DNA of 64,000 nucleotides, taken from the NCBI RefSeq assembly GCF_036172515.1, contig NZ_JAXKVW010000009.1, positions 1-64,000 of the forward strand. Reading direction: 5' to 3'. Positions 25,753 through 43,242 of this stretch are shown one piece after another (the first letter of the stretch is position 1; every line of letters begins with the position of its first letter). Both the position numbers and the translations under genes were made by a program. The notes beneath the pieces are model-generated. The model made no database searches, was not told where the DNA came from, and was given only the letters and a program-made list of their open reading frames with translations. Source of the stretch: Flexistipes sp. (GTDB lineage: Bacteria > Chrysiogenota > Deferribacteres > Deferribacterales > Flexistipitaceae).

Positions 25753-25785
25753 ATTTACAGGTAAATTACATAAAGACAATATCTT
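25753..25785 (+). promoter_or_regulatory. PHO-box-like promoter of the phn operon
   Basis: ATTTACA (25753-25759), 4 nt, AATTACA (25764-25770), 9 nt, TATCTT (25780-25785), about 50 nt before the phnD start. Half-site sequence, 11-bp period and distance to the -10 all match the pstS promoter. C-P lyase operons are classic members of Pho regulons. Confidence 0.5.
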
Positions 25786-25837
25786 TTTAACATTGCACAT
25801 TTATTATTACGTTACAATAAAAACGAAGAGGTGTGGC

Positions 25838-26839: not shown

Positions 26840-26860
26840 CCCCTCCTGCTTTTATCACTT

Positions 26861-26889
26861 GCCGCTGTCATTAATAACAGCGGCTTTTT
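26861..26889 (+). terminator. Hairpin with T-run between phnD and phnE (attenuator)
   Basis: GCCGCTGT (26861-26868), 8-nt loop, ACAGCGGC (26877-26884), then TTTTT: a good intrinsic terminator 21 nt after phnD. Since phnE-phnN follow on the same strand with small gaps, it probably terminates only part of the transcripts. That would leave PhnD in excess. Confidence 0.75.
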
Positions 26890-26913
26890 ACCCTGAAACA
26901 CAAGAGGTTAAAT

Positions 26914-27732
26914 ATGGAAAATACAGATAAGCTCAACCTTTCCGCAAACGCATCCAATCATCTGCGGATAAAATGGCCTGAAATTTTTTCAAGAACCACT
27001 TATATTTTAGTAATTATTGCAGTATTGGGTATTTCCTATTTTCCTGCAGAAATTTACAGATGGCCCATGATATTCACGGATGCAGCAAATATGGCCACCT
27101 ATCTTTCCGATTTTCTTAAACCGGATTTTACAGACCTTAAACTTTATGTGATGAAAATGTTTGAGACAATTACAATTGCAGCATGGGGTACCTTTTTGTC
27201 AATTGTATTCGGCATCCCCTTTGCTTTGTTATCATCAAACAATATCGCCCCCAAATGGATTGTCCAGCCAATCAGAAGACTTATGGATGCAGCAAGAGCT
27301 ATAAACGAACTGGTTTTTGCAATTCTTTTTGTGGCAGCAGTGGGGCTCGGCCCCTTTGCCGGAACAATGGCGGTTTTTGTTCATAATACAGGCATAATAA
27401 GCAAACTCTTTTCCGAATCCGTTGAAGCTGTGGATATGCGTCCAGTAGAGGGCATACGTTCCACAGGAGCCGGATATTTCCATGAAATTATTTACGGTAT
27501 AATCCCGCAGGTAATGCCTCTATGGTCAAGCTTTTCTTTGTACAGATTTGAAACAAATGTCCGCTCTGCAACTGTATTAGGTATAGTTGGTGCAGGAGGT
27601 ATAGGGTTTACTTTCTATGAATCTTTCAGGGCATTTAAATATTCAGATGCTGCAGCAATAATTATCGTAGTGGTTATCACGGTTTCTTTAATAGATTTAC
27701 TTTCCTCTCAATTAAGAAAAAAACTTATTTAA
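26914..27732 (+). CDS. phnE: Phosphonate ABC transporter permease PhnE
   Basis: 272 residues, inner-membrane permease with about six hydrophobic segments. The EAA-type loop contacting the ATPase is GIRSTGAGYFHEIIYGIIP, followed by SATVLGIVGAGGIGF, typical of PhnE/MetI-class permeases. AAGAGG precedes ATG 26914. There is a single permease gene here, as in E. coli K-12 (where phnE is broken), so the active permease should be a homodimer. It works with PhnD and PhnC. Confidence 0.95.
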   Translation: MENTDKLNLSANASNHLRIKWPEIFSRTTYILVIIAVLGISYFPAEIYRWPMIFTDAANMATYLSDFLKPDFTDLKLYVMKMFETITIAAWGTFLSIVFGIPFALLSSNNIAPKWIVQPIRRLMDAARAINELVFAILFVAAVGLGPFAGTMAVFVHNTGIISKLFSESVEAVDMRPVEGIRSTGAGYFHEIIYGIIPQVMPLWSSFSLYRFETNVRSATVLGIVGAGGIGFTFYESFRAFKYSDAAAIIIVVVITVSLIDLLSSQLRKKLI

Positions 27733-27757
27733 TATAAAAAATAGCTTGGAGGGTTAT

Positions 27758-28537
27758 GTGTCTGTAATAAAAATAAATAATGTTTGCAAATCATTTAAAA
27801 AAGGAAAACCTGTTCTGAAAAATATTAATTTAAATATAGAAAAAGGGGAAATGGTGGGGTTAATAGGCCCTTCCGGCTCAGGAAAGTCGACTTTGCTCCG
27901 TTTACTAGGCGGATTTGAAGTAATTGATCCTGTACCTGATAGTGAAATTGAAATGCTAGGTCAGCTAACCCAAAATAATGGTAAAAAAACATCTTCCTGC
28001 CGGCAGTCACACCAGTATATCGGTATAATATTCCAACAATTTAACCTTGTGGGACGACTAAGACTTCTGACAAATGTTCTGATTGGAAGACTCGGTAAGA
28101 TCCCTTCATGGAAGGGCACTTTGGGATTCTTCCCAAAGGAAGATAAAATTAAAGCATTGGAAGCTCTGGAGCGTGTAAATATGGTGGATTTTGCATTCCA
28201 AAGGGCATCTACTTTGTCCGGAGGGCAACAGCAACGTGGGGCTATAGCCCGGGTACTTGCACAGGAATCAAAAATAATTCTTGCTGATGAACCTATTGCG
28301 TCCCTTGATCCGGCATCCTCGGACAGAGTTATGAATCACCTGGTCAACATTAATAGAACAGACAAAACCACTATTATCGTTTCACTTCATCAGTTTGAGG
28401 TTGCCAGAACAAGGTGCGAAAGAATTGTTGCTTTAAAAGATGGTGAAATCATTTATGACGGCAGTCCTGAAAATATTTCAAGAAATGATTTGATAAATCT
28501 TTACGGTGTGGAAAGTGCGGACGCACTTTATGCTTAA
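27758..28537 (+). CDS. phnC: Phosphonate ABC transporter ATP-binding protein PhnC
   Basis: This is the ATPase of the phosphonate importer, with Walker A GPSGSGKST, signature [15 protein letters not shown] and Walker B IILADEPIASLD. The start is set at GTG 27758, 4 nt after GGAGGG (27748-27753). The in-frame TTG at 27746 overlaps that ribosome site, and the nearer ATG at 27756 is out of frame and stops at once. Length is 259. Gene order phnD-phnE-phnC differs from E. coli phnC-D-E. Confidence 0.95.
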   Translation: MSVIKINNVCKSFKKGKPVLKNINLNIEKGEMVGLIGPSGSGKSTLLRLLGGFEVIDPVPDSEIEMLGQLTQNNGKKTSSCRQSHQYIGIIFQQFNLVGRLRLLTNVLIGRLGKIPSWKGTLGFFPKEDKIKALEALERVNMVDFAFQRASTLSGGQQQRGAIARVLAQESKIILADEPIASLDPASSDRVMNHLVNINRTDKTTIIVSLHQFEVARTRCERIVALKDGEIIYDGSPENISRNDLINLYGVESADALYA

Positions 28538-28555
28538 ATAATAAAAGGAGCTTAT

Positions 28556-28969
28556 ATGAATAGAAGAGATCTAAATTTTGTTTTTCAAAATTCAGATAAA
28601 AACCAACTGAACCGATTATATGAAAAAATAAGCAGTGAACAAAAAGTTATTGTTATACAGGAGCCCACATCCCAAACAATAATGCTGCCTGTGAAAGATC
28701 CTGTAAGCGGGGGTACATTTTATGCAGGTGAGGTACTTGTCACAACCAGTACCGTGGAAGTTAACGGTAGTAAAGGGTGGGCAATGGTAATGGATGATAA
28801 CCCTGAACTGTCATTGATTTTATCCATGATAGACGGATGTTTCGCTTCAGGCTTGTACACAGATTTAATAGAATCGTTATATATCTCCACCTTGACCAAG
28901 ATTTCTGATACCCGTGAAAAAATAAACCAAATGGTCAATTCTACAAAAGTAAGCTTTGATTTAATGTAG
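28556..28969 (+). CDS. phnG: C-P lyase core subunit PhnG
   Basis: 137 residues. It is part of the PhnGHIJ core complex that makes and cleaves 5-phosphoribosyl-1-phosphonate. PhnG with PhnH and PhnI is needed for transfer of the phosphonate to the ribose of ATP with loss of adenine. The family pattern QEPTSQTIMLPVKDP and FYAGEVLVTTSTVEV is visible. AAAAGGAG precedes the start, and a 6-nt gap leads to phnH. Confidence 0.93.
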   Translation: MNRRDLNFVFQNSDKNQLNRLYEKISSEQKVIVIQEPTSQTIMLPVKDPVSGGTFYAGEVLVTTSTVEVNGSKGWAMVMDDNPELSLILSMIDGCFASGLYTDLIESLYISTLTKISDTREKINQMVNSTKVSFDLM

Positions 28970-28975
28970 GTCAAT

Positions 28976-29512
28976 ATGGATAAGCACAATATAAATGATT
29001 TAAACAGAGATAACTTCAGAATATTAATGCACTCGTTGGCACACCCCGGAACCAACGGTCAAATTAAGCCGGTCTTTGATTCATTTTTTCTGGGTATAGC
29101 TTCATGCCTGCTCTATCCTGAAGTTGCATTTTTTTATAAAGGTACAGAAGATTTTTCCCTTTTAAATTTAATCACAAACTCAAATAAAGCCCCTCTGGAA
29201 ACTGCAGACTATATTTTTTGTGATGGAATTACTGTCGATCCTGTTACCCAGGCTAAAAGCGGAACTTTTAAAAATCCTGAGTTTTCAGCTTCAGTATTTT
29301 TTAAATGTCGTGATTTTGACGGTATCAGGCTGAAAATATCAGGTCCCGGAATAAAAAATTTTAATAATATAACTCTTCCCGTGGACAAGTATTTTATAGA
29401 GTCCCTAAATAAAAAAAACGGTCTTTATCCACTTGGTATAGAAGTGTTTTTTATAAATGATGAAGGGCTGATAACAGCATTAAGCAGAACAACAACTATT
29501 GAGGTGATTTAA
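28976..29512 (+). CDS. phnH: C-P lyase core subunit PhnH
   Basis: 178 residues. PhnH is a PLP-transferase-fold protein without PLP and binds the PhnGIJ core. The N-terminal FRILMHSLAHPGTNGQIKP is the family hallmark (FRxxLxAMARPG in proteobacteria), with A-H replacing A-R in the usual motif. It starts 6 nt after phnG and ends 1 nt before phnI. It lacks catalytic residues of its own. Confidence 0.92.
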   Translation: MDKHNINDLNRDNFRILMHSLAHPGTNGQIKPVFDSFFLGIASCLLYPEVAFFYKGTEDFSLLNLITNSNKAPLETADYIFCDGITVDPVTQAKSGTFKNPEFSASVFFKCRDFDGIRLKISGPGIKNFNNITLPVDKYFIESLNKKNGLYPLGIEVFFINDEGLITALSRTTTIEVI

Positions 29513-29513
29513 A

Positions 29514-30560
29514 ATGGGTTATGTTGCCGTAAAGGGCGGAGAAAAAGCTATTGAATACTCACAGAACTTTTACAGGCAATTTTTTTACAGAAAATCTGAT
29601 AATAATTTTATTATAAATAATTTAAGTTTTGCTGTTGATAAAGTTATGAGTGAAGGAGGGCTTTTTACAAAATTACTAAGTGCTGAAGCAATAAGAAAAT
29701 CAGGCGGAGATCTCCTTAATGCCTCATTCTATGTAAGAGCTCACAGAAGTACGTGCCAGCGGACAGGTGATGCCAGGATAGTAAAAACTGAAGACATAAG
29801 AATTCTCCGAAGAATATCTTCCGCTTTTAAAGATATAGAAGGAGGGCAAATCCTGGGTCCTTCGGATGATTATGCTGTTAAACTGCTTCTAAACGCTGAT
29901 TACAGGGAAAAAAAGTACAAAAACTTCAACAAATCGGATATCTATCTGAAATCAGCCCTGACTACACTAAGAAACAATAATTTGGTAAAAAAAATAGAAA
30001 AAGATAACCAGATTTGGGATATTACAAGGGTTTTTCCAAATCCCCCTTACCCAAGGAGTGCTGTACAACAGGTTATGAGCCGGGGGGAAACCGGTGCCAT
30101 GCTTGCTTTTGCATATACCACTATGAGGGGTTACGGAGATGTTCATCCTACTATCGGTGATTTGCGAATTGGATATGCCCCCGTTTATTTTAAGCACCCT
30201 TTTCTTGAAGAAGAAATAAAAATAGGCGATATAGAAGTAACATCATGTGAGTGCGTCGGTTCCTTTAATAAGGATCAGAACGGAGATATCAAGCTCACCA
30301 CAGGTTTCGGTTTTTGTTTCGGATTCAATGAAACAAAAGCAATTTCAATGTCAATACTGGATCTTTCCCTTTACAATAAATCTTATACAATTGGAGAGAA
30401 ACATATCGCAGATGATTTTGAGATAATAATGTTCCATATAGACGGCATAGAATCATACGGGTTTGCAAACCATTTTAAACTCCCCCACTACGTTACTTTT
30501 CAATCCGACCTGCAGGTATTTGACAATGCAAATCAATTTAACAAAAAGGAGAAAAAATGA
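29514..30560 (+). CDS. phnI: C-P lyase subunit PhnI
   Basis: 348 residues. PhnI is the nucleosidase-like subunit that, with PhnG and PhnH, catalyses displacement of adenine from ATP by the phosphonate. Conserved stretches include MGYVAVKGGEKAIEYS, GGDLLNASFYVRAHRST and GYGDVHPTIGDLR. Its stop overlaps the phnJ start by 4 nt (ATGA), consistent with 1:1 assembly of PhnI and PhnJ in the core. Confidence 0.95.
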   Translation: MGYVAVKGGEKAIEYSQNFYRQFFYRKSDNNFIINNLSFAVDKVMSEGGLFTKLLSAEAIRKSGGDLLNASFYVRAHRSTCQRTGDARIVKTEDIRILRRISSAFKDIEGGQILGPSDDYAVKLLLNADYREKKYKNFNKSDIYLKSALTTLRNNNLVKKIEKDNQIWDITRVFPNPPYPRSAVQQVMSRGETGAMLAFAYTTMRGYGDVHPTIGDLRIGYAPVYFKHPFLEEEIKIGDIEVTSCECVGSFNKDQNGDIKLTTGFGFCFGFNETKAISMSILDLSLYNKSYTIGEKHIADDFEIIMFHIDGIESYGFANHFKLPHYVTFQSDLQVFDNANQFNKKEKK

Positions 30561-31378
30561 TTTACGCCTTTTTGGATGAAGATGCCAAAAAAGAAATTAG
30601 AAGAGCAATATTAAAGGCTATAGCCATACCTGGTTATCTTGTTTCATTCGCATCAAGGGAGATGCCCATTGCCAGAGGCTGGGGCACAGGAGGGCTGCAG
30701 GTCACACTTTCCGTAATAAGTCCCGAAGATGTTTTAAAGGTTATAGACCAGGGGTCGGATGACAGTGTAAACGCAGTAAATATCAGAAAATTTATCGAAA
30801 ATGTTACAAATAATGAAACCACCACCGAAACTGAAAAAGCCACACTGATACAAAGCAGACACAGAATCCCCGAGAAACCTTTAAAAAATGGGCAGATACT
30901 TGTATTGCAGGTGCCGGAACCGGAAGTTCTTTCCAATGTGGAAACAGATAGTGCCAAACAAAAAGATATGCACGCCAACGAGGATTATTCCAAATTATGG
31001 GTTCTTCTTTATGAAGATACAGCCCAATTCGGGGACAGCAGAATAGGCAGCAGATATCCGGTGAGGGTTCACGGAAGATATATAATGGATCCAAGCCCCA
31101 TCCCCAAATATGACACACCTAAGCTAAACAAAAATGAGGCACTCATACTTCTGGGAGCGGGCAGAGAAAAAAAAATTTATGCTGTTCCTCCTTTCACCGA
31201 TGTTGAGCCTATAAAATTCGATGACCAAGGCTTTCATATCGAAGAGTTTAAAGACAAAAGGTGTGAAATCTGCGGCGCTTCAGGGGTATATTTTGATGAG
31301 ATTTTTGATGAAAATGATAACCCCCATTATTACTGTAATGACACTGCTTACTGTGCAAGCAGAAAAGGAAATCTATAA
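30557..31378 (+). CDS. phnJ: Radical-SAM C-P lyase PhnJ
   Basis: 273 residues. It is the catalytic subunit that cleaves the carbon-phosphorus bond of 5-phosphoribosyl-1-phosphonate with a [4Fe-4S] cluster and S-adenosylmethionine, giving a 1,2-cyclic phosphate and an alkane. Four cysteines near the C-terminus are in the family pattern C-x2-C then C-x5-C (CEIC, and YCNDTAYC). The N-terminal GWGTGGLQVTLSVIS and the middle GSRYPVRVHGRYIMDPSPIP are also typical. It overlaps phnI by 4 nt, and its stop shares one base with the phnK start. Oxygen sensitivity of the cluster suits anaerobic life. Confidence 0.96.
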   Translation: MIYAFLDEDAKKEIRRAILKAIAIPGYLVSFASREMPIARGWGTGGLQVTLSVISPEDVLKVIDQGSDDSVNAVNIRKFIENVTNNETTTETEKATLIQSRHRIPEKPLKNGQILVLQVPEPEVLSNVETDSAKQKDMHANEDYSKLWVLLYEDTAQFGDSRIGSRYPVRVHGRYIMDPSPIPKYDTPKLNKNEALILLGAGREKKIYAVPPFTDVEPIKFDDQGFHIEEFKDKRCEICGASGVYFDEIFDENDNPHYYCNDTAYCASRKGNL

Positions 31379-32214
31379 TGATTTTAAATACCAATAACCT
31401 CACAAAAATCTTCGGGGACGGTTGCAGCAGGTGTATTTCATCAACAGGTTCAGAAGCCGGAAACTCGATATGCCCCCATTGCCAAAGTATTGTCGCAGTT
31501 AATTCAGTAAACATTGAATTAAACGACGGGGAAGTTCTTGGGATAGTCGGAGAATCAGGCAGCGGTAAATCAACACTTTTAAAACTTCTTTATAGGGACA
31601 TCGATGCATCTCAAGGAAAAGTTTTTTTAAACGACTTCAAAGATAAGTATGGGAAAATGAAAGATATAATGAAAGCAAACCTTCAGGAACTGAAATGGCT
31701 AAGAACTTCACTGATGTCAATTATCTATCAAAATCCGGCTCTGGGTTTGAATTTTCATTTTTCAGCAGGTGGGAATATAGCTGAAAAAATAATTATGAAG
31801 GGTGAGAACCGGTACCGTAACATAAGAGAAAAAGCTCTGTATTTTATGGACAAAACTGAATTGCCGTTAAGCAGAGTAGATAATTACCCGGATAAATTTT
31901 CCGGAGGACAGCAGCAGAGAGTACAAATTTCCAAAGCAATGTCATCGGATCCCAAACTGCTTCTTCTGGATGAGCCCACTACAGGGTTAGATTTATCTGT
32001 CCAGGCAAAAATTTTGGATCTGATAAAAATACTTCAGAAAAAACTTGGCTTTGCAATGATAATTGTCTCCCATGATTTGGGGGTCATAAAACATTTAACA
32101 GATATAACAGTTGTCATGAAAAACGGTGAAATTGTGGAAAAGGGACTTACAGACCAAATCCTGGAGGATCCTTTCCACCCTTATACACAACTTATCGTTT
32201 CCAGTATTTTATAG
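31378..32214 (+). CDS. phnK: C-P lyase ABC protein PhnK with a cysteine-rich insert
   Basis: 278 residues. This ABC ATPase docks on the PhnGHIJ core rather than on a transporter. It has Walker A GESGSGKST, signature FSGGQQQRVQISKAM and Walker B LLLLDEPTTGLD. Between the first strand and Walker A is an insert of about 20 residues with GCSRC and CPHC, a zinc-ribbon-like four-cysteine set absent from E. coli PhnK but which I recall from some anaerobes. TAATG couples it to phnJ. The insert might bind metal; it was not tested. Confidence 0.94.
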   Translation: MILNTNNLTKIFGDGCSRCISSTGSEAGNSICPHCQSIVAVNSVNIELNDGEVLGIVGESGSGKSTLLKLLYRDIDASQGKVFLNDFKDKYGKMKDIMKANLQELKWLRTSLMSIIYQNPALGLNFHFSAGGNIAEKIIMKGENRYRNIREKALYFMDKTELPLSRVDNYPDKFSGGQQQRVQISKAMSSDPKLLLLDEPTTGLDLSVQAKILDLIKILQKKLGFAMIIVSHDLGVIKHLTDITVVMKNGEIVEKGLTDQILEDPFHPYTQLIVSSIL

Positions 32215-32223
32215 GAGAAAATA

Positions 32224-32928
32224 ATGACACGGCTTCTTGTTGAGAAACTTACAAAATATTTTACCTTACATACCAAAGGCGGGATTGTTGTTAAAGGATT
32301 CAGCAATGTTTCATTTGAGCTGAAAGAAGGGGAATTCCTTGCACTCAGCGGCAGCAGTGGCAGCGGCAAATCTTCTGTATTAAAAAGTATCTATAGGACA
32401 TACATCCCTTCTTCCGGGAATGTTTTTTATTACTCAAAAAATGGAAAAACAATTAATTTAGCCGCCGCAGATGAAAGCACCATCCTGACAATGAGAAAAG
32501 CTGAGGTAGGTTACGTTTCGCAATTTTTACGTGTACTGCCAAGAATTACTGCATTAGAAGTTGTGGCACAGCCTTTAAAAGATCTTGGAGAATACGAAAC
32601 AAAAGCACTGGATGAGGCATCAGGACTTCTGGATTTTTTAGGTATCAGAGAAGAGCTGCTCAACATATCACCCCTGACATTCTCAGGAGGCGAGCAGCAA
32701 AGAGTCAATATTGCCCAGGGAGTAATAGCTCCGAAAAATCTTCTATTGTTAGATGAACCTACAGCTTCTCTGGATGCGGAAAATTCTGAAAAAGTACTTA
32801 CAAAATTGCTGGAGATAAAAAGGAAAGGTACAAGCATGATAGGTATCTTTCACAACAGAGATATAATGCAAAAAGTAAGTGATAAAATTTACAATTTAGA
32901 GGAAAAGGCCTATGCAGTTAGTAATTAG
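32224..32928 (+). CDS. phnL: C-P lyase ABC protein PhnL
   Basis: 234 residues. This is the second ABC-type ATPase of the C-P lyase system, required together with PhnK for activity in vivo and found with the core as a PhnK-PhnL sandwich. It has Walker A SGSSGSGKSS, signature [16 protein letters not shown] and Walker B LLLLDEPTASLD. AGGAG lies upstream of ATG 32224. It overlaps phnM by 17 nt. Confidence 0.94.
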   Translation: MTRLLVEKLTKYFTLHTKGGIVVKGFSNVSFELKEGEFLALSGSSGSGKSSVLKSIYRTYIPSSGNVFYYSKNGKTINLAAADESTILTMRKAEVGYVSQFLRVLPRITALEVVAQPLKDLGEYETKALDEASGLLDFLGIREELLNISPLTFSGGEQQRVNIAQGVIAPKNLLLLDEPTASLDAENSEKVLTKLLEIKRKGTSMIGIFHNRDIMQKVSDKIYNLEEKAYAVSN

Positions 32929-34081
32929 AAGCAGTCAGATTTTAACCGGTGGCAGATTCATCCCGGCGGATATTGCAATTTCAGGCAGTATTATCTCATC
33001 AATAGAACCATATAAAAGCCTGGACTCGGCTATAGACATGGGGAATATGAAAATCGTTCCGGGTTTTGTTGACCTTCATTCGGATGCAATAGAAAAGGAG
33101 ATTGAACCAAGGCCCGGAGCAAGGTTTCCTCTAAAGGCAGCGGTTATGAATTTAGACAAAAAACTCGGTTTATCGGGGATAACAACAATGTTTCATGCAG
33201 TGGGTTTCAATGATGAAGAACTCACCAAAAACAGAAGGGGAACGGAAAAATCAGCAGAGCTTGTCAATGAAATATATTTCAGCAACAAACGGTTTTTAAA
33301 TGTTGATAACTACATTCATACCAGGTTTGAAATTACAAGCCGAAGTTCTATTAATACGGTCAAAAAGCTTATCAGTGAGCATAAAATCAATATGCTCTCA
33401 CTTATGGACCATTCCCCTGGACAAGGGCAGTTTAAAACTCTTGAGTCATGGAAAAAATATCATCTTTCGGCATACAGTTTTGATATTGAAAATATAGAAA
33501 AGTATATTGAAAAAAAACTTTCATCCGACAAAACAGGTATTGTTGAGGAACTTGTAAAATTTGCAAGATCATATAATATTCCGGTGCTCAGCCATGATGA
33601 TGACTGCAAAGAGAAATTAAACACACTTAAAAATCTCGGGATAACATTTTCAGAATTTCCACTGAGTATAGAAGTGGCTGAATATGCAAAAAGTTTAAAC
33701 ATAAGTACCGGCATGGGTGCCCCAAATGTGGTAAGGGGAGGATCCCAGAGCGGCAATATCGCCGCAAAAGAACTGATATCCAAAAATTTATGTGATTATC
33801 TCTGCAGTGATTATCACCCTTCCTCAATGCTTTTGGCGCCTTACAAACTTCAGGAGGACCTCAACATTCCACTTGAAAAAGGGCTCCAACTGGTGAGTAC
33901 TAATCCTGCCCAGTTAGCGGGTCTAAAAGACAGGGGGATAATAGCGATAGGTAAAAAAGCTGACTTAATAGTGATAGATGAGTCCTACACACCAAATATC
34001 GTTTTTACAATTAAAAACGGTAAACCAATATATAACGGGATAAATAATGATAAACAGGTGTTAAACCATGCTTTACTGTAA
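32912..34081 (+). CDS. phnM: Triphosphoribosyl 1-phosphonate diphosphatase PhnM
   Basis: 389 residues, amidohydrolase superfamily. It removes pyrophosphate from 5-triphosphoribosyl-1-phosphonate to give the PhnJ substrate. Metal-binding and family motifs are VDLHSDAIEKEIEPRPGARF, SLMDHSPGQGQF, VLSHDDD and SDYHPSSMLLAP. It overlaps phnL by 17 nt and the hexapeptide transferase by 14 nt, so translation is tightly coupled. Confidence 0.96.
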   Translation: MQLVIRSSQILTGGRFIPADIAISGSIISSIEPYKSLDSAIDMGNMKIVPGFVDLHSDAIEKEIEPRPGARFPLKAAVMNLDKKLGLSGITTMFHAVGFNDEELTKNRRGTEKSAELVNEIYFSNKRFLNVDNYIHTRFEITSRSSINTVKKLISEHKINMLSLMDHSPGQGQFKTLESWKKYHLSAYSFDIENIEKYIEKKLSSDKTGIVEELVKFARSYNIPVLSHDDDCKEKLNTLKNLGITFSEFPLSIEVAEYAKSLNISTGMGAPNVVRGGSQSGNIAAKELISKNLCDYLCSDYHPSSMLLAPYKLQEDLNIPLEKGLQLVSTNPAQLAGLKDRGIIAIGKKADLIVIDESYTPNIVFTIKNGKPIYNGINNDKQVLNHALL

Positions 34082-34709
34082 ATCTCTCAATAAAATTGAT
34101 AAGAAAAAACTTTCCCCGGAGCCTCTAATAGACTCCACTTCCAGCATTACAGATACATATATCGGCAGATATACAGAAATCGGTAAAAATAACAGTATTG
34201 CTGAGTCATCAATAGATGATTACAGCTACACATGCGAAAACTGCCAGATTATTTATTCGGAAATTGCCAAATTTGTAAACATTGCATCCTATGTCAGACT
34301 TAATCCGGGACAGCACCCTATGAAATGGGTATCACAGCACCATTTTCTTTACAGAAAAGATATGTATGGTTTCGGAGAGGATGACAACTCATTTTTTGAG
34401 TGGCGGAGAAACCAAAAGGTTATCATTGGAAACGATGTGTGGCTGGGACATAACAGTTTGATAATGGGTGGCGTTTCAATCGGGGACGGAGCAGTTGTTG
34501 GGAGTTGTTCTGTTGTTACAAAAGATGTGCCCTCTTATGCTGTAGTTGCCGGAGTTCCGGCCAAGATAATTAAATACCGATTCAACGAGGAAATTATAGA
34601 AAAAATGATGGAAATAAAATGGTGGAACTGGCCGCATGAAGTGATTGAGAAACGTTTAGATGATTTCAAAAATCCCGAATATTTCATTAAAAAATATACT
34701 AAAAGCTAA
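34068..34709 (+). CDS. Hexapeptide-repeat transferase of the phosphonate operon
   Basis: 213 residues. The left-handed beta-helix is visible as repeating turns (VIIGNDVWLGHNSLIMGG, VSIGDGAVVGSCSVV) ending in the typical AGVPAKIIKYRF. A recognised subgroup of such transferases occurs only in phn operons, where an acyl or other group may be moved onto a pathway intermediate or aminophosphonate. The precise reaction is not established. It overlaps phnM by 14 nt. E. coli has an unrelated GNAT enzyme, PhnO, in this position, so this could be its functional counterpart. Confidence 0.85.
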   Translation: MLYCKSLNKIDKKKLSPEPLIDSTSSITDTYIGRYTEIGKNNSIAESSIDDYSYTCENCQIIYSEIAKFVNIASYVRLNPGQHPMKWVSQHHFLYRKDMYGFGEDDNSFFEWRRNQKVIIGNDVWLGHNSLIMGGVSIGDGAVVGSCSVVTKDVPSYAVVAGVPAKIIKYRFNEEIIEKMMEIKWWNWPHEVIEKRLDDFKNPEYFIKKYTKS

Positions 34710-34714
34710 AAATA

Positions 34715-35260
34715 ATGCAAAAAATTATACTTATAGTGGGTCAAAGCGGAGCGGGTAAAGATACGCTTCTCAATGGTGCGACAAAATACATGAGATGTAA
34801 TTTTGTAAAACGATACATTACAAGAAGTCCCGACGAATCAGAAAATAACTATTATATAAGCCGTAAATGTTTTGAAACACTTTCAAAAACAGGATATTTT
34901 ATTGCAGAGTGGAGAGCTCATTCTAATTTGTACGGTATAGCAAAGGATGATATAAAAGAAGGCACCAATATAATATCTGTATCTAGGCAGGTTGTGGAAA
35001 AATTTGAGCATATTTTCGAAAATGTAATCACTATTGAAATTACTGCACCTAAAGAGGTGTTGCTTCAAAGACTTAAAGAAAGAGGACGGGAAAAGACGAA
35101 AGAGCAACAAAAGAGACTCGGAAGAACGTATGAAAAAATAAATGCAAAGAAATTGGTAACGTTCAATAATTATCTTGAAAAGGAGGCAAGCAGCCGAAAG
35201 TTTGTAGAACTTTTGAAACGTATAGAAAGAAATGATAACAAGTTGCTGTCACGAAAATAA
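34715..35260 (+). CDS. phnN: Ribose 1,5-bisphosphate phosphokinase PhnN
   Basis: 181 residues, guanylate-kinase-like P-loop protein with Walker A VGQSGAGKDT. In C-P lyase pathways it phosphorylates ribose 1,5-bisphosphate to PRPP, returning the ribose carbon to nucleotide metabolism. It is last gene of the operon. No phnP (cyclic phosphodiesterase, the step just before PhnN) or phnF regulator is present. The start ATG 34715 has a weak ribosome site, so it may rely on readthrough coupling from the transferase gene 5 nt upstream. Confidence 0.93.
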   Translation: MQKIILIVGQSGAGKDTLLNGATKYMRCNFVKRYITRSPDESENNYYISRKCFETLSKTGYFIAEWRAHSNLYGIAKDDIKEGTNIISVSRQVVEKFEHIFENVITIEITAPKEVLLQRLKERGREKTKEQQKRLGRTYEKINAKKLVTFNNYLEKEASSRKFVELLKRIERNDNKLLSRK

Positions 35261-35489: not shown

Positions 35490-35915
35490 TTATAATACAG
35501 CATTGAGAAAATTTTTGATTTTATCCTCAATCTCATCTCTTATCTTTCTGACTTTTTCAAGCCTTTCTTCCTCGCTGCCTGTAGCTGCAGAGGGATCCGG
35601 AAAAGGCCAGTGGAGTCTTTCGCTAAACCCCGGAAAAATGGGACAATTTTCAGCCGCTTCCTTGTCGCAGACGGCAATCACATAGTTATAAGTTCTGCCT
35701 TCCTTAAAAAAGTCAAACACCGACTTTGTCTTATTTCCGGAAATATCAATACCCCTTTCAGACATCACTTTAACTACATCCTGATTTAATGTACCCGGTT
35801 CCAGCCCGGCACTTTCAACAAAGACATTACCGCCTCCGTATTTTTTTGCAAACGCCTCTGCCATCTGGCTCCTGGCAGAATTGTGCACACACACAAAGAG
35901 TATTTTCTTATACAT
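35490..35915 (-). CDS. arsC: Arsenate reductase, low-molecular-weight phosphatase type
   Basis: 141 residues with LMW-PTP fold. The P-loop is CVHNSARS (C9 nucleophile). Two further cysteines in VCDKEAAENCPIFPG match the relay cysteines of thioredoxin-coupled ArsC (C82/C89 in S. aureus), which separates it from plain tyrosine phosphatases. It reduces arsenate to arsenite. No arsenite exporter or ArsR is near. Placement after a PHO-box-like promoter and sulfotransferase suggests it protects against arsenate that enters by the induced Pst system. It lies 35 nt after the sulfotransferase gene. Confidence 0.88.
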   Translation of the reverse strand: MYKKILFVCVHNSARSQMAEAFAKKYGGGNVFVESAGLEPGTLNQDVVKVMSERGIDISGNKTKSVFDFFKEGRTYNYVIAVCDKEAAENCPIFPGFSERLHWPFPDPSAATGSEEERLEKVRKIRDEIEDKIKNFLNAVL

Positions 35916-35950
35916 TTTAATCCCCTGTAAGTTTATTATAAATTATTTTA

Positions 35951-36838
35951 CTATAACTGATAATCGAATCTCTTCATCCACCTGTTGCAGTGTCTTTTAA
36001 GTTGTTCAAACATCTTGTTATCCCAGTCTTTAAAATTTGGAAATTTCCCTTTAGACCTTGAGTGTACCTTTTTATTAAGAAGGTCCGGTTTTAAATCATA
36101 ATCATAAATTTCTGAGTTAAAATTTGTTGCAAATTTAAGCATATCTTCAAGGTAAGAAGTATCCTCTCTGTCAAAAATATCCTCAAAACGGTAAACCCTA
36201 AAATTATCTTTCCCTTCCATTGTATTTATTACATGCTCATTCAGTTTATTGTAAAACCAGCAGTATTTTTCAAATTTGCTCATCCTTTTCCACTTCTTTG
36301 CCCAGTTGTCATCAGAGAAATCCATTGCAGTTGGGCTTAACTTTAGAAGCTTTTCATCAAACGGTCCGTATAAATAGTATTCAAAGGTATTCAGAGCAGA
36401 CGTTACCCATTTTTTAGGATCCCTGACGATATGGATAAATTTTGCATTTACAAATACTTTATCGATAACCTCCAGTATCCCGTAAATATGCCCGCTTGAT
36501 TCCACATAAATATCTTTAGGTGAGCTGGATACAAAATCCTTCCGCATATCTGCTACATAATCAGCTGTTTTTTCACTTTCAAGTTCACCTACCATGTATT
36601 TCCGGCTTAATTTGAACATACAGTGCCTATGAGAAAATTGCCCGGCAGTCATATTGTAAAAACCGAAATCCCGAACCTCTTTAATAAAATCCTTAGGTCT
36701 TGTTATCCATGGACTACCCGGTTCATGGTAGGCAGTGGCATCCTTTACCATTAAACTTAAATTTTTAGCCAAAAACTGAGTTCCCGTCCTGCCGGTAGAA
36801 GTTATAAAAACAGACGGCTTGGTAATCTTGTTATGCAT
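35951..36838 (-). CDS. PAPS-dependent sulfotransferase
   Basis: 295 residues. The PAPS 5'-phosphosulfate loop is VFITSTGRTGTQFLAKNL at the N-terminus. The 3'-phosphate site is FIHIVRDPKKWVTSALN in the middle (RDP with a serine 7 residues on). These two motifs define the sulfotransferase superfamily (Sulfotransfer_3-like). It has no signal or membrane helix, so it is cytoplasmic or membrane-peripheral. Its start overlaps the stop of the glycosyltransferase gene (TAATG), so the two proteins are made together. This suggests the acceptor is the glycosyltransferase product. The acceptor is inferred, not shown. Confidence 0.85.
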   Translation of the reverse strand: MHNKITKPSVFITSTGRTGTQFLAKNLSLMVKDATAYHEPGSPWITRPKDFIKEVRDFGFYNMTAGQFSHRHCMFKLSRKYMVGELESEKTADYVADMRKDFVSSSPKDIYVESSGHIYGILEVIDKVFVNAKFIHIVRDPKKWVTSALNTFEYYLYGPFDEKLLKLSPTAMDFSDDNWAKKWKRMSKFEKYCWFYNKLNEHVINTMEGKDNFRVYRFEDIFDREDTSYLEDMLKFATNFNSEIYDYDLKPDLLNKKVHSRSKGKFPNFKDWDNKMFEQLKRHCNRWMKRFDYQL

Positions 36839-37998
36839 TATACAACCCTTTTCAATTTTTGTTTCAATTGAGAGTAGTACAGTTTTTCAACCTTTTGTCC
36901 AAAAGCAGTATCGGAAAATTTTTCAGCACTTTTCACAGCATTGTTTCTCCATAAAGTTAGATCATTTGCCGACACAGCCTGCAAAACAACCTCAGGCAGT
37001 TCAGAGTCGCTGTCGAAAAAACATCCGTTATATTTATCCTCCACAACATTTTCCAGATTGCTGTCATATTTAGCAATCACAGGTAACCCTGAGGCAAGGG
37101 CTTCAATATAGGTGAGCCCTTGTGTTTCCGATGTGGAGGCACTTATAAAGAAATCCGCCATTTTATAATATTTATCTATCTCAGTATATTTCACTTCACC
37201 TGTAAACACTATGTTCTCTGAAATTCGGAGCTTCATACTCAAGTTCTCAAGATTGAATTTTTCATCTCCGTCTCCGGCAATGACCAAAAATATTTCCGGG
37301 TTTACTTTGACAATTTCAGGCATCGCTTTAATCAGGACATTTATATTCTTTTCTTTTGCAAGTCTTCCAACAAAGAGCAAAATCTTCACACTTCTGCTGA
37401 TTCCCAGTTTATCCCTGAAACTGTTATAAATTTCTGAATCAGGATAAAAACGCTTTATATCGATACCTGTGGGGATCACATTTAACTTACTTTGCACACC
37501 GTAGTCCTTTAAAATTCCCGATGTTTTTTCCGAAGGGGCGATGACACAATCACTTTTATTGCAGATAATACGGCTCAATTTCCTGACAAGTTTTACAGCA
37601 TATCTGTCACCAACACCTTTAGTAACATAGTGGGTATAGTCCTCATACATGGTATGATAAGTATGTACAAGCGGAAGATTTAATTTTCCTGCAACAATTC
37701 TCCCGAAGGTTCCTATGGAAAATTCCGTATGTGTATGTATTAAATCAAACTTCTCCCTCTTTATCATACGTATAGTTCTATAAGAATAAAACATTGCCAC
37801 CCGGTGTTCTTTCTGCATGGGAAATGTTATACTTGAGAGTCTAATGACATCTGTTTCACTATCTGCATTAGGTACCTTAACAGTAATAATCACAACTTTA
37901 TGACCAAGCCTTTCCAATTGTGATTTCAGGATACCGATTGAAGTAACAACACCGTTCACCTGGGGATAATAAGTATCTGTAAAAAAAGCAATTTTCAT
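36838..37998 (-). CDS. GT4 glycosyltransferase, resembles diacylglycerol glucosyltransferases
   Basis: 386 residues. The N-terminus FFTDTYYPQVNGVVTSIG, middle FSIGTFGRIVAGKLNLP and HTYHTMYEDYTHYV, and donor site ETQGLTYIEALASG match GT4 enzymes that transfer a hexose to 1,2-diacylglycerol (the family of monoglucosyl- and sulfoquinovosyl-diacylglycerol synthases). In several bacteria such enzymes are induced by phosphate starvation to replace phospholipids. AGAGG sits 5 nt before ATG 37998. It is the first gene of GT4-sulfotransferase-ArsC, with PHO-box-like repeats upstream. A glycan acceptor other than lipid cannot be excluded. Confidence 0.88.
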   Translation of the reverse strand: MKIAFFTDTYYPQVNGVVTSIGILKSQLERLGHKVVIITVKVPNADSETDVIRLSSITFPMQKEHRVAMFYSYRTIRMIKREKFDLIHTHTEFSIGTFGRIVAGKLNLPLVHTYHTMYEDYTHYVTKGVGDRYAVKLVRKLSRIICNKSDCVIAPSEKTSGILKDYGVQSKLNVIPTGIDIKRFYPDSEIYNSFRDKLGISRSVKILLFVGRLAKEKNINVLIKAMPEIVKVNPEIFLVIAGDGDEKFNLENLSMKLRISENIVFTGEVKYTEIDKYYKMADFFISASTSETQGLTYIEALASGLPVIAKYDSNLENVVEDKYNGCFFDSDSELPEVVLQAVSANDLTLWRNNAVKSAEKFSDTAFGQKVEKLYYSQLKQKLKRVV

Positions 37999-38018
37999 AT
38001 AAACCTCTTTATTTTATT

Positions 38019-38073
38019 AATTTAGTAACTTTTTGTAAAATCAATATCAAATAATTGTTATATTTCAGTGAAA
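38019..38073 (-). promoter_or_regulatory. PHO-box-like promoter of the GT4-sulfotransferase-arsC operon
   Basis: On the minus strand, units TTTCACT (38073-38067), TATAACA (38062-38056), TTTGATA (38051-38045) and TTTTACA (38040-38034) repeat at 11 bp. TAAATT (38024-38019) follows after 9 nt. Two units are identical to units of the pstS site (TATAACA, TTTTACA) and two are degenerate. Order and spacing to the -10 are as at pstS. Confidence 0.45.
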
Positions 38074-38113: not shown

Positions 38114-38157
38114 TTTTGCAAATTTTTAACATTTTTTTAACATAGAGGTGCAATTGT
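38114..38157 (+). promoter_or_regulatory. PHO-box-like promoter of the ppx-ppx-ppk operon
   Basis: TTTTGCA (38114-38120), TTTAACA (38125-38131) and TTTAACA (38136-38142) repeat at 11 bp. A poor -10 (AATTGT, 38152-38157) follows after 9 nt. It faces away from the GT4 site at 38019-38073, so the 180-nt divergent region would serve both operons. Confidence 0.45.
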
Positions 38158-38178: not shown

Positions 38179-39699
38179 GTGAATGACAAAAACCTGACAA
38201 TAGGAATAATAGACCTTGGTTCAAATTCCATCAGACTTCAGATTGCAAATGTTTTTGAAAAGAGTTACCGCATAGTGCATGAATACAGGGAAATCGTACG
38301 AATTGGTGATGACCTTTTCAAATACGGTTTTCTCACAGAACATTCTGTGAATAAGATTTATGCATGTTTTACGGACATAAAAAAGATACTGGAAAGTTAT
38401 AGTGTAGGAATTATAAGAGCAGTTGCCACTGCGACACTCAGGGAACTGAAAGAAGGTTATGAAATTGTTCAGGAAATAAAATCAAGATATGGCATAAGTC
38501 TGGAAATTATAAGCGGTGAAGCAGAAGCAAAATTGTCCTACCTTGCAATTTCCGGCAGTTTTCAAACAGATAAATATAATGCAATAATAACAGATATTGG
38601 CGGAGGAAGTGCAGAGTACACTCTTGCACTAAAAGGGGAGATCGTAAATATAACAAGCAAGAAACTTGGTTGTTCACGCTTAAAAAATATATTTCTGCAT
38701 CATAACCCTCCTGAAATAGCAGAAGTCTATAAATTAAAGCAGCATATACAGGAAGAAGTAGAAAATTATGGAGATTATCATATCGACTTAGTAGTTTGCA
38801 CTGGCGGTACAATCAATAATATTGCAAATATCTATTATATTTCATCAAATAAAGATGAAAAAACAAAAATTAAATACATACCACGTAAATTTCTAAAAGA
38901 TTTCATAAACAAAATCAGATATATGGATACTGAAAGTATAAGAAAGATAAAAGGTGTTGAGCCTAAAAGGGCTGATATTCTATTACCCGCAGCTATAAAC
39001 ATCGAAGTTTTGCTTTCAAAATCTTCATTCAACGGCTTTTATACATTTACCGGCGGACTGAGAACCGGCTTGATTATCGATACACTGAATTCAATGAATA
39101 TTACTCTGCCTTTTCAGGATTTAGGCGAGGATATATTTTACTCCCAGCTGATAGAAATAGGAAACAAATTTCAGTTTGAAGAAGAACATGCCCGGCATGT
39201 TGCTTTCCTTTCGGAAAGATTTTTTGATGAGCTAAACAAAAAATGGAAGCTTGATAACGAAAACAGAAATATCCTTACCGCAGCAGCAATTCTACACGAT
39301 ATTGGAAACTATATCTCCTTCTCCAAACATCATAAACACTCATATTATTTAATAAAAAATTCCGACATTGCAGGTTTCAATTACAGACAGAAATTAATGA
39401 CTGCCCACGTTGCCAGATATCATAGAAAAAATCTGCCCAAAAAAAGTCATCAGATTTATGAAGATCTGGACAGCAAAGATATAAACATTGTAAAGAAGCT
39501 GGCAGCCATACTCCGGGTTGCTGATGGCCTGGACAGAGGGCATAAAAAATTTATTTCGGATGTTAATATCAAGATTACAAAAGACAATATTACCATTAAT
39601 CCTTTATCTGATAAAAATATCATTTTGGAAAAAAAAGCATTCGAATTAAAGAAAGATATGCTTGAAAGTGTTACAGGAAAGAATCTGGAGATATTATGA
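38179..39699 (+). CDS. ppx: Exopolyphosphatase/pppGpp phosphohydrolase with HD domain
   Basis: 506 residues. The Ppx/GppA actin-like fold (1-300) has both phosphate loops (GIIDLGSNSIRLQI, ITDIGGGSAEY), the catalytic-glutamate loop IISGEAEAKLSY and CTGGTINNIANI. The HD domain (about 320-506) has AAILHDIGNYI. This is the long Ppx type, hydrolysing terminal phosphate from polyphosphate or the 5'-phosphate of pppGpp; the choice cannot be made from sequence. The start is GTG 38179 with AAAGGGG upstream. It overlaps the next gene by 4 nt. It is first in an operon with a second Ppx-like gene and ppk. Confidence 0.92.
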   Translation: MNDKNLTIGIIDLGSNSIRLQIANVFEKSYRIVHEYREIVRIGDDLFKYGFLTEHSVNKIYACFTDIKKILESYSVGIIRAVATATLRELKEGYEIVQEIKSRYGISLEIISGEAEAKLSYLAISGSFQTDKYNAIITDIGGGSAEYTLALKGEIVNITSKKLGCSRLKNIFLHHNPPEIAEVYKLKQHIQEEVENYGDYHIDLVVCTGGTINNIANIYYISSNKDEKTKIKYIPRKFLKDFINKIRYMDTESIRKIKGVEPKRADILLPAAINIEVLLSKSSFNGFYTFTGGLRTGLIIDTLNSMNITLPFQDLGEDIFYSQLIEIGNKFQFEEEHARHVAFLSERFFDELNKKWKLDNENRNILTAAAILHDIGNYISFSKHHKHSYYLIKNSDIAGFNYRQKLMTAHVARYHRKNLPKKSHQIYEDLDSKDINIVKKLAAILRVADGLDRGHKKFISDVNIKITKDNITINPLSDKNIILEKKAFELKKDMLESVTGKNLEIL

Positions 39700-41213
39700 A
39701 AAACGGTATTTTTGCAACAATTAACGTGGGAGCTAGCGCTCTTCGGATGCAGATATCAGAATTTATCGACCATAAAGAAAGAACATTGGAATACCTTATA
39801 AAACCATTAAAATTGGGTAGAGATACTTTTTCCAAAGGCTATATTACTCTGGAAAATGTCCACAATGCCACAGAAATCCTGGGGAATTTTTCTGACAAAT
39901 TTAAAGAATATAACATTAAGAATAACTATAAGGCAATTTGTACAAGCAGTGTAAGAGATGCTGAAAATAAATACTTTTTTATAGACCATGTTCGTATCAA
40001 AACAGGGATTAAACTGGAGATAATCGATGAGACGGATGAGCTGTTTGTAAAAAGTTTGGGAGTAAAAAATGATATAAAGGATTTTCAAAAAATGGAGGAA
40101 AAAGGGCTTCTTTTTGTAAATCTTGCCAGCGGAAACATAGGCATTAACCTGATAAAAAAAGATTTACGGCTGTTTTCTGCTGCGCTGCCTTTCGGAAGCC
40201 TGAGAGTCTGCGAATTTTTTAAGGGTGTTAATGAAGATCTGAAATATCGTGCTTATGAACAGTACATTCATAAGATGCGACATCATATAGAAACTACCTG
40301 CAGGAGAATAGATTCTGTTAAATATTTAGTGGGATCCGGAAGTTCAATTAATCTTATAATTGAAGTTATGAAGCCATCAAACTTCTCCATAGATAAACGT
40401 TCCATTAAAAAACTTTATGATAAAACAAAACGATTATCAACAAGCGAAATAACCGGGCAACTCAATATAAACAGCTACTACGCAGAAATTCTCAAGCCTA
40501 CATTATATGTTTATTTATCGCTCATGGATCTGGTAAAAACAGATGTTTTATATTTCAGTAAACAAAGTTTTCCCACTCAATTGACATTGTATTATACCAA
40601 AAACATAAAGGAAAAAAAACTTAACAGGAAATTTATCACCAACATAAAAAATTACGCATTGCGGTATGAAACGGATGAAAAACATGCAAATCAGGTGGCA
40701 AAATTCAGCAAAAAAATATTTAATAAACTTAAGTCCCTCCATTCGCTGAAATCAAAAGATCTTTTAATTCTGGAAGCTGCAGCTTTACTGCATGATGTAG
40801 GCTATTTTATTGGAATTAATAACCATCAGGAGCATTCCTATTATATAGCTCGTGCATTCAGTATGCCCGGTTTTGATGCTGAAACAATTGATACAATTTC
40901 TACCATAGCGCTTTTTCATAGGGACAAACATCACTTAACATTTGATTCAAGATTTACATCACTTCCTATAGAAAAGAAACTCCTTATTCGTAAACTTATT
41001 GCTTTACTGAAAATAGCTGATGCGCTAGATGCCAGTCATATGCAGATTGTCAGAGATATAGAAATTAATACAAATTCAGATGGAATTACTCTAACAGCAA
41101 AAGCCCACAAAAAACCTTTTTTTGAAGAAATCACTTTTTACAGAAAAAACAGAGATTTTTTGGAAATATACGGGATTCCGATTAATTTAAAACTGGATTT
41201 GCTAAATGCCTGA
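39696..41213 (+). CDS. Divergent Ppx/GppA-HD paralogue, probably not a polyphosphatase
   Basis: 505 residues, same two-domain layout as the preceding protein but with eroded active site. The first loop is INVGASALRMQI instead of IDLGSNSIRLQI. The catalytic SGEAEA is replaced by IDETDELF. The second phosphate loop is VNLASGNIGINL instead of TDIGGGSAEY. The third is LVGSGSSINLI. The HD pair is kept (ALLHDVGYFI). It is intact in length and coupled to both neighbours (4-nt and 8-nt overlaps), so it is maintained, perhaps as a regulatory partner or an HD-only hydrolase. Function is unknown. Confidence 0.85.
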   Translation: MKNGIFATINVGASALRMQISEFIDHKERTLEYLIKPLKLGRDTFSKGYITLENVHNATEILGNFSDKFKEYNIKNNYKAICTSSVRDAENKYFFIDHVRIKTGIKLEIIDETDELFVKSLGVKNDIKDFQKMEEKGLLFVNLASGNIGINLIKKDLRLFSAALPFGSLRVCEFFKGVNEDLKYRAYEQYIHKMRHHIETTCRRIDSVKYLVGSGSSINLIIEVMKPSNFSIDKRSIKKLYDKTKRLSTSEITGQLNINSYYAEILKPTLYVYLSLMDLVKTDVLYFSKQSFPTQLTLYYTKNIKEKKLNRKFITNIKNYALRYETDEKHANQVAKFSKKIFNKLKSLHSLKSKDLLILEAAALLHDVGYFIGINNHQEHSYYIARAFSMPGFDAETIDTISTIALFHRDKHHLTFDSRFTSLPIEKKLLIRKLIALLKIADALDASHMQIVRDIEINTNSDGITLTAKAHKKPFFEEITFYRKNRDFLEIYGIPINLKLDLLNA

Positions 41214-43242
41214 TTCTCAGTTGTTTAATAACAGAGAACTAAGCTGGCTTTCATTTAACAGACGGGTCATACTCCAGGCCAGAGATGAAAATGTCCCACT
41301 TATTGAAAAACTCAAATTTCTGGCGATTTCCTCATCTAATCTGGATGAGTTTTTTATGGTGAGGGTGGGAGGATTAATAGACCATATCGCAGCCAGTTAC
41401 ATGGAAAAAGATCTTTCGGGACTTACTTCAATCCAGCAATTGCAAGAAATATCTGAGGAATGTCACAATCTCACCATTATCCAATCGGAAATTTACTATG
41501 ATTTAAAACAACAGTGCGCAAAGGAAAGAATCTATATCGAAGCGGAAATTGAGGAAAATTTTGAATGGATCGAGTCCCTTTTTTACGAGGTAATTTTCCC
41601 TGTGATATCCCCTATTACGCTGGGACCGGCAAATCCATTCCCTTTCCTGGCAAACCTGAGGTTGTGTATTCTTGTAAAAATAAAACAAAAAGGTAATGTT
41701 TACGATTCTTTGATTTTAGTCCCTGAACTGCTGGAGCGCGTTTATAAATTGGAAAAGAATGGCATAAGCTACTATTATACTGTAGAGCAAATTATCATTA
41801 ACTTTTTGTCCACCATCTACAAAGGGTATGAGATTATTGATAATTTTGTATTCAGGATTACAAGAAATGCTGATTTATCTCTGCATGATGAAGAAGTGGA
41901 AGACTTGCTGATTCTTATAGAGAAATATCTGGATAAGAGACAAAAGAGCAATGCTGTAAGATTGGAAGTAAATAAGCCGTTACCGCAGGATTTAAAGAAC
42001 AAGTTCAAAACATTTTTTGATATAAATGATTCACATATTTATGAACTGAGCCATCCTCTGGATCTGAGTTTTCTTTTTAATATAAGTGAAAATAATGAAA
42101 AATTTTATTACCCAGAGTTTAATCCTTGGCTGCCCCGGGAGGTAAAATCTAAAAGCCTCTTTGACTATCTTAAAACAGCGGATTTAATACTTTACAGGCC
42201 ATATCACGATTTCGGATTAATTGGCAATTTTATCCGGCAAGCTGCTGAAGATCATAACGTTTTAAGTATAAAGATGACCCTTTACAGAGCTAATGAAAAT
42301 TCAAAAATTATTGAATCGCTGGCAAAAGCAGCAAAAAACGGTAAGCATGTCTGTGTTATCATAGAACTAAAAGCCCGATTTGATGAAGAAAGAAATGTGG
42401 AGTGGGCAAAACGTCTTGAAAATGCAGGCTGTATCGTAACATACGGTTTTATGGATTTGAAGGTTCATGCAAAAGCACTTCTGATAGTCAGAAAAGAAAA
42501 CGGAAAAATTCAGCGCTATGTCCATATGTCAACGGGCAATTACAATGAAAAAACAGCCAGGTTGTACACTGATATTGATTATCTGACCACGGATAAGCAA
42601 ATTGCCGAAGAAACTGTTAATCTGTTTAATTATCTGATGGGTTATTCGGATGTATATAAATGGAAATTAACAGAAGGTACGGAACAAAAGATCACCACAG
42701 CGCCAAACAGTTTAAGAGAAAAATTAATGGAACTTATCGATGAAGAAATAAAAAACGCCAGAAAAGGGAAAAAAGGGCATATTATTGCAAAAATAAATTC
42801 CTTATACGACAAAGAACTCACCTTAAAACTTTATGAAGCCTCCTCAGCAGGTGTAAAAATAGAATTGATAGTAAGAGGTATATGTTCTTTAAGACCTCAG
42901 GTTAAGGGTTTAAGTGAAAATATTAGCGTAAAAAGTATAGTCGGCCGATTTCTTGAGCATCCCAGAGTTTTATACTTTTTATCATCCGGTTCACATAAAG
43001 TTTTTATTTCCACTGCAGACTGGATGGTAAGAAATCTGGACAGAAGAGTGGAACTTTTGACAGAGATCGAAGATAAAGGAAGTAAAATATTTTTACAAAA
43101 ATTACTGCAGGATAACCTAAATGACCGGGCAAAATCATGGTATATGAAAGATGACAGGTATTTTAAAATAAAACAAAAAGAAAAAACGGAATATAATTAT
43201 CAGGAAGAATACCTAATCGGGATAAATGAAATTTTGGATTAA
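41206..43242 (+). CDS. ppk: Polyphosphate kinase PPK1
   Basis: 678 residues. It reversibly polymerises the gamma-phosphate of ATP into polyphosphate at the membrane. N-terminal FNNRELSWLSFNRRVI and SSSNLDEFFMVRVGGL are PPK1 hallmarks. The phospholipase-D-like active part has MDLKVHAKALLI (phospho-accepting His) and VHMSTGNYNEKTARLYTDI. The C-terminus has MVRNLDRRVELLTEI. Normal length (E. coli 688). It overlaps the preceding gene by 8 nt, so synthesis and breakdown enzymes are co-translated from one PHO-box-like promoter. Confidence 0.96.
   Translation: MPDSQLFNNRELSWLSFNRRVILQARDENVPLIEKLKFLAISSSNLDEFFMVRVGGLIDHIAASYMEKDLSGLTSIQQLQEISEECHNLTIIQSEIYYDLKQQCAKERIYIEAEIEENFEWIESLFYEVIFPVISPITLGPANPFPFLANLRLCILVKIKQKGNVYDSLILVPELLERVYKLEKNGISYYYTVEQIIINFLSTIYKGYEIIDNFVFRITRNADLSLHDEEVEDLLILIEKYLDKRQKSNAVRLEVNKPLPQDLKNKFKTFFDINDSHIYELSHPLDLSFLFNISENNEKFYYPEFNPWLPREVKSKSLFDYLKTADLILYRPYHDFGLIGNFIRQAAEDHNVLSIKMTLYRANENSKIIESLAKAAKNGKHVCVIIELKARFDEERNVEWAKRLENAGCIVTYGFMDLKVHAKALLIVRKENGKIQRYVHMSTGNYNEKTARLYTDIDYLTTDKQIAEETVNLFNYLMGYSDVYKWKLTEGTEQKITTAPNSLREKLMELIDEEIKNARKGKKGHIIAKINSLYDKELTLKLYEASSAGVKIELIVRGICSLRPQVKGLSENISVKSIVGRFLEHPRVLYFLSSGSHKVFISTADWMVRNLDRRVELLTEIEDKGSKIFLQKLLQDNLNDRAKSWYMKDDRYFKIKQKEKTEYNYQEEYLIGINEILD

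Follow-up and report, generated by a model that had tools for sequence, protein, structure and literature searches.

A three-gene operon that may direct the synthesis of a sulfated glycolipid was identified at positions 35490-37998, on the minus strand, of the window, i.e. the whole 64,000-nt stretch of Flexistipes sp. DNA analysed here (contig NZ_JAXKVW010000009.1 of a draft genome rated 99.8% complete). The genes are transcribed in the order family 4 glycosyltransferase (GT4), sulfotransferase and ArsC-type arsenate reductase, and their likeliest function, to which we assign a probability of roughly 50%, is synthesis of a glycosyl-diacylglycerol induced through a phosphate-starvation (Pho) promoter, followed by sulfation of the product. 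The operon, its Pho box, the predicted enzyme classes and the genes for making the sulfate donor 3′-phosphoadenosine 5′-phosphosulfate (PAPS) are well supported by the sequence.

Operon structure and Pho box

The GT4 gene (36838-37998, minus strand, 386 aa) is followed on the same strand by genes for a predicted PAPS-dependent sulfotransferase (35951-36838, 295 aa) and a predicted ArsC of the thioredoxin-coupled type (35490-35915, 141 aa), all three located where the first-pass annotation had placed them, and their assignment to one operon is well supported. One base is common to the stop codon of the GT4 gene and the start codon of the sulfotransferase gene (TATAATGCAT, TAATG), and the counterpart junction in UBA1873 (G002), a metagenome-assembled genome (MAG) of the same genus, reads ATGATG. 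The TAATG overlap had been described at first as a translational fusion; the overlap was confirmed, and the two genes are better described as overlapping and probably translationally coupled. The ArsC gene, also noted in the first pass, starts 35 nt downstream of the sulfotransferase gene. Its product matched PF01451 above the cut-off and TIGR02691 over the full length (1.1e-35, 122.7 bits, below the curated cut-off of 174.3), with a C-x5-R loop (CVHNSARS) and an additional cysteine pair (CDKEAAENC) in the translation. No polysaccharide-assembly genes were found within the operon or adjoining it. Base composition did not mark the GT4 and sulfotransferase genes as foreign (36-37% GC versus 38%), and searches for horizontal acquisition via phages or plasmids gave no match.

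Upstream of the GT4 gene, the Pho box (38023-38072, minus strand) comprises five in-phase half-sites 11 bp apart, which from 38072 to 38023 read TTCACT, ATAACA, TTGATA, TTTACA and TTACTA. Half-sites of the TTNACA type recur every 11 bp before pstS, phnD, a gpgS-like gene, ppx and the GT4 gene, and a position weight matrix was trained on the first four of these promoters with the GT4 promoter held out. The held-out promoter scored 16.9 (p=0.0004 against 5000 Markov-resampled controls), versus 4.2 or less at other half-site spacings, and ranked fifth in the window with one overlapping pstS site counted. The box was kept in the orthologous promoter of UBA1873 (p=0.0008, from the same number of controls), and no separate box was found before ArsC (p=0.11). 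Genome-wide, the motif matched five times with at most one mismatch, in comparison to two matches of the reversed-pattern control, and three of the five were at pstS, ppx (ppx-ppk) and phoU-phoB. Altogether, Pho control of the operon, as initially proposed from a PHO-box-like element, is well supported on the basis of the held-out score, the specific spacing and the conservation of the box.

UBA1873 has all three genes, in unchanged order and likewise beside ppx-ppx-ppk. Its GT4 is 85% identical to that of the window with a ratio of nonsynonymous to synonymous substitution rates (dN/dS) of 0.12, and its sulfotransferase 88% identical (dN/dS 0.08), so both look like functional genes under purifying selection. 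The window genome was taken as a second Flexistipes species beside F. sinusarabici. Apart from a dispersed repeat and a single match of 33 bases, window 18.1-38.1 kb had no nucleotide match in F. sinusarabici, and a protein search of that genome found nothing closely homologous to the GT4, the sulfotransferase or the window ppx. In a genome of another genus in the same order (G003), ppx-ppx-ppk is kept with no GT4, sulfotransferase or ArsC gene beside it. The dispersed repeat (window 21663-21948) contains imperfect inverted repeats, has no Rfam match, and is present in about 20 or more copies in F. sinusarabici and in some copies in UBA1873.

Enzyme classes and PAPS supply

The GT4 protein matched the Pfam families Glyco_transf_4 (1.7e-37) and Glycos_transf_1 (1.8e-36). 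Its best curated family was alpha-monoglucosyl-diacylglycerol synthase (MGS; NF049988, 291 bits over the full length), 170 bits ahead of the next, MshA (121 bits). In a maximum-likelihood tree with relatives recovered from a survey of 385 genomes, the window GT4, its UBA1873 orthologue and the genes of loci L028 and L029 formed a clade of four with 99/98 support. In both of these loci the next gene encodes another glycosyltransferase, which for L028 matched the lipoteichoic-acid-anchor enzyme IagA/BgsA with 434 bits. The motif TYHTMYEDYTHY (TYHT..EYY/.HY in the sister genes) and the E-x7-E motif were present, and the N-domain is basic (pI 9.5), as in most relatives. The first-pass likening to diacylglycerol glucosyltransferases was borne out by the family ranking and the clade, with the curated cut-off missed, and since the protein groups with lipid glycosyltransferases, diacylglycerol is very probably its acceptor.

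The sulfotransferase matched Pfam Sulfotransfer_3 (PF13469) with 36.6 bits, above the gathering cut-off of 27, and retained the PAPS-binding motifs that had been reported as intact, i.e. ITSTGRTGT (5′-phosphosulfate loop) and IVRDPKKW (3′-phosphate motif). Gly19, Arg139 and Ser147 were invariant in an alignment of 11 sulfotransferases. An AlphaFold2 model from these eleven sequences had a predicted TM-score (pTM) of 0.69 and a mean predicted local distance difference test (pLDDT) of 62; an input of two sequences gave a pLDDT of 38. The top 17 matches of the model in the PDB were all sulfotransferases, at modest TM-scores of 0.38-0.50, and included the curacin pathway domain, tyrosylprotein sulfotransferases and STF9. 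The assignment to PAPS-dependent sulfotransferases is thus well supported by motifs, family match and predicted fold. A PDB search by sequence returned no relative, and consequently no homologue of known substrate from which the acceptor could be read off. Among the genomes searched, close relatives of the sulfotransferase occurred in the two Flexistipes-genus genomes only.

For PAPS supply, the genome encodes a predicted module of permease, CysQ-like phosphatase, CysD, and CysNC with an adenosine 5′-phosphosulfate (APS) kinase domain. No APS/PAPS reductase was found, as PF01507 matched CysD only; F. sinusarabici and UBA1873 each have an APS-reductase-type CysH (PF01507) besides. In the two sulfotransferase families searched, PF13469 matched the window gene only and Sulfotransfer_1 (PF00685) none, and the window sulfotransferase is, within these families, the only PAPS consumer found in the genome.

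Proposed function and the phosphate island

At low phosphate, a PhoB-type regulator would bind the 11-bp-phased box at 38023-38072 and switch on the three genes. The GT4 would move a hexose, probably glucose from UDP-glucose, onto diacylglycerol to give a neutral glycolipid, and the coupled sulfotransferase would move sulfate from PAPS onto a sugar hydroxyl. The resulting sulfated hexosyl-diacylglycerol could be an anionic, phosphorus-free stand-in for phosphatidylglycerol and cardiolipin. CysD and CysNC would supply PAPS, CysQ would clear the leftover 3′-phosphoadenosine 5′-phosphate, and ArsC may handle arsenate entering via the induced phosphate transporter. In this scheme we infer the identity of the sugar, the action of the sulfotransferase on the GT4 product and the physiological role. 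The first-pass annotation had likewise proposed a sulfated glycolipid; Pho control, a lipid-type GT4, a PAPS sulfotransferase, a conserved gene pair and PAPS supply find support in the sequence, with the sulfotransferase acceptor and the lipid product remaining at the level of proposal.

Several observations weigh against this function. The 291 bits of the GT4 are below the curated NF049988 cut-off of 400 bits, as are the 292-304 bits of its relatives in canonical pairs of MGS and IagA/BgsA-type genes. No sulfotransferase gene flanked any of the other 13 GT4 relatives examined. A search for conserved GT4-sulfotransferase pairs, suggested in the first pass, was made as a contig scan with poor peptide patterns and recovered only the sister genome UBA1873; the evidence for a wider absence comes from samples of 385 and 51 genomes, in which no other member of the phylum, F. 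sinusarabici included, had the pair. Its confinement to two Flexistipes-genus genomes makes the comparative support for coupling of the two enzymes thin. Since F. sinusarabici has the PAPS module as well but no such operon, the module is not dedicated to the operon. In UBA1873, neither APS kinase nor CysD was found, which suggests an assembly gap rather than true loss, because this MAG is 88% complete and its APS reductase needs APS. A second lipid-type GT4, possibly the principal glycolipid synthase, is encoded on contig C26 (locus L025:13985-17274) as a 742-aa phosphoesterase-GT4 fusion (NF049988, 201 bits) overlapped by a flippase-like gene. This gene pair is conserved in F. sinusarabici and G012, the fusion resembles a glycolipid gene that includes its own phosphatase domain, and a Pho box was sought before the operon and not found (p=0.36). 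Finally, the glycolipid acceptor of the sulfotransferase is something we infer.

An alternative reading, in which both enzymes decorate the lipopolysaccharide (LPS) core or a surface polysaccharide and the sulfated sugar replaces envelope phosphate groups under phosphate limitation, is considered rather unlikely. In its favour, most bacterial Sulfotransfer_3 enzymes met in this study lie in polysaccharide clusters, and those of F. sinusarabici, which also count against a lipid product, sit in a surface-polysaccharide cluster with Wzx-like and GT2 genes (376-396 kb); the best match to the window sulfotransferase outside the genus (G240, 26% identical) adjoins an FkbM-like methyltransferase gene. 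However, the window GT4 groups with glycolipid synthases and not with LPS or capsule glycosyltransferases, and the operon and its surroundings hold no further polysaccharide genes. The F. sinusarabici cluster (L055, G001 374000-393900) comprises several different sulfotransferase genes, and searches with the same families found none like these in the genome of the window.

It is less probable still that the GT4 product is a Pho-induced neutral glycosyl-diacylglycerol of the ordinary kind and that the co-regulated sulfotransferase uses a different acceptor. Neutral glycolipids made by Agt are known to replace phospholipids (PMC4796936; Dde_3613, PMC5193443), and the sulfotransferase is without a close homologue of known substrate, but the stop/start overlap in both genomes favours coupled stoichiometry and no other sulfotransferase or acceptor pathway was found at the locus. 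The least probable alternative is extension of the GT4 product by a gpgSDF/hexSDF-like operon (21959-25586, minus strand), with the sulfotransferase acting on or balancing the aminoglycolipid. That operon is Pho-boxed, its gpgS-like GT4, deacetylase and flippase match best the glucosaminyl-phosphatidylglycerol (GlcN-PG) families, and HexSDF of C. difficile makes aminohexosyl-hexosyldiradylglycerol (PMC10128005; discussed in PMC12713373). Against this, 10 kb separate the two operons, the three proteins are all below the curated cut-offs, and nothing found points to a shared substrate. For the preferred two-step route to a sulfated hexosyl-diacylglycerol, a tentative and somewhat doubtful extension is that a Pho-controlled aminoglycolipid operon of the same island may be its partner, which would let the cell tune anionic as well as cationic head groups without new phosphorus.

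The phosphate island comprises, in order, pstSCAB, a PHP-GT4 fusion, the gpgSDF-like operon, the phn/carbon-phosphorus (C-P) lyase genes, the GT4 operon and ppx-ppx-ppk. The Pho box (13951-13978) upstream of the phosphate uptake operon pstSCAB (9567-13897, minus strand) was the motif reference. The gpgSDF-like operon also includes an inserted GNAT-type acetyltransferase gene; its Pho box (25619-25646) scored 17.9, and 11.3 once excluded from the training set (p=0.008), and it is possibly a Pho-controlled aminoglycolipid operon. The phn operon for phosphonate uptake and C-P lyase (25793-35260, plus strand) is preceded by a Pho box at 25754-25781, and matched the PhnD, PhnM and transferase-hexapeptide families above and a PhnN-like family below the cut-off. 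The gpg-like block (21960-26010) is 95-96% identical to UBA1873 and the phn block (26110-33780) no more than 77%, and this mosaic pattern suggests that the gpg-like lipid operon was exchanged recently.

Divergent from the GT4 operon, ppx, a ppx paralogue and ppk1 for polyphosphate metabolism (38179-43242, plus strand) have a Pho box of three half-sites (38115-38142, plus strand), which scored 20.0, and 16.8 with its own promoter excluded from the training set (p=0.002), and was among the five genome-wide matches. The two adjacent, diverged Ppx/GppA-HD proteins right before ppk1 (38179-41213, plus strand) are kept in UBA1873 and G003, and the second, with a much weaker Ppx domain, may be regulatory. 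The PHP-GT4 fusion (18208-20622, plus strand, 804 aa; weak Pfam match for the PHP domain) has a candidate Pho box 224 nt upstream (17956-17983, p=0.006), and a similar fusion was found in G048 of the same phylum. The island also contains a 670-aa protein (15892-17904, minus strand) with a signal-peptide-like start and no Pfam or NCBIfam match.

Comparison with known systems

The window GT4 is similar to alpha-monoglucosyl-diacylglycerol synthase in its full-length match and motifs and in being sister to genes of MGS and IagA/BgsA-type pairs. It differs from these pairs in its Pho control and in having a sulfotransferase beside it instead of a second glycosyltransferase. Sulfoquinovosyl-diacylglycerol (SQDG), made by SqdB and SqdX, is in turn an anionic glycolipid that contains sulfur but no phosphorus and is used when phosphate is limiting; it is, however, a sulfonate, with UDP-sulfoquinovose built before transfer, whereas the window pair would add a sulfate ester after sugar transfer. 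No SqdB was seen among the genes of the operon or those next to it, the genome not having been searched for it. The proposed order of steps is that of animal sulfatide and seminolipid, in which the glycolipid is made first and its sugar then sulfated with PAPS by cerebroside sulfotransferase. This enzyme belongs to another sulfotransferase family, acts on galactosyl-ceramide or galactosyl-alkylacylglycerol, and is not Pho-controlled.

Agt makes Pho-controlled glycolipids including the anionic, phosphorus-free glucuronosyl-diacylglycerol (GADG), which is thought to replace phosphatidylglycerol (PMC4796936), and its homologue Dde_3613 in D. alaskensis is associated with a fitness defect under phosphate limitation (PMC5193443). 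A phosphate-starvation promoter and a lipid glycosyltransferase are common to this PlcP/Agt remodelling (marine bacteria, Agrobacterium, Dde_3613) and the window operon, but the latter is without PlcP, its GT4 is of another subfamily, and the charge would come from a PAPS-derived sulfate ester, not from glucuronic acid. The GpgSDF system for GlcN-PG was described in Pseudomonas aeruginosa (PMC12713373). GpgSDF and HexSDF are likewise lipid-head-group GT4 operons, with a related Pho-boxed operon in the window; unlike the window pair, they add a cationic amino sugar, with deacetylase and flippase and no sulfotransferase.

In the open-access literature, nothing on point was found for a sulfated glycosyl-diacylglycerol that bacteria make with a PAPS sulfotransferase when phosphate is limiting, and the F. 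sinusarabici genome paper states that polar-lipid data are unavailable (PMC3236037). If the proposed route is true, it would represent an unrecorded phosphorus-for-sulfur swap in membranes, with the lipid itself predicted from the genes, in an anaerobic hot-brine lineage (a heat-loving and salt-loving genus). The genes could then serve as a marker of sulfated glycolipids in anoxic settings, and the system as a test of the view that membrane charge is held constant while phospholipids drop. Next to SQDG, it would be a second genetic route to a membrane lipid that is anionic and contains sulfur but no phosphorus.

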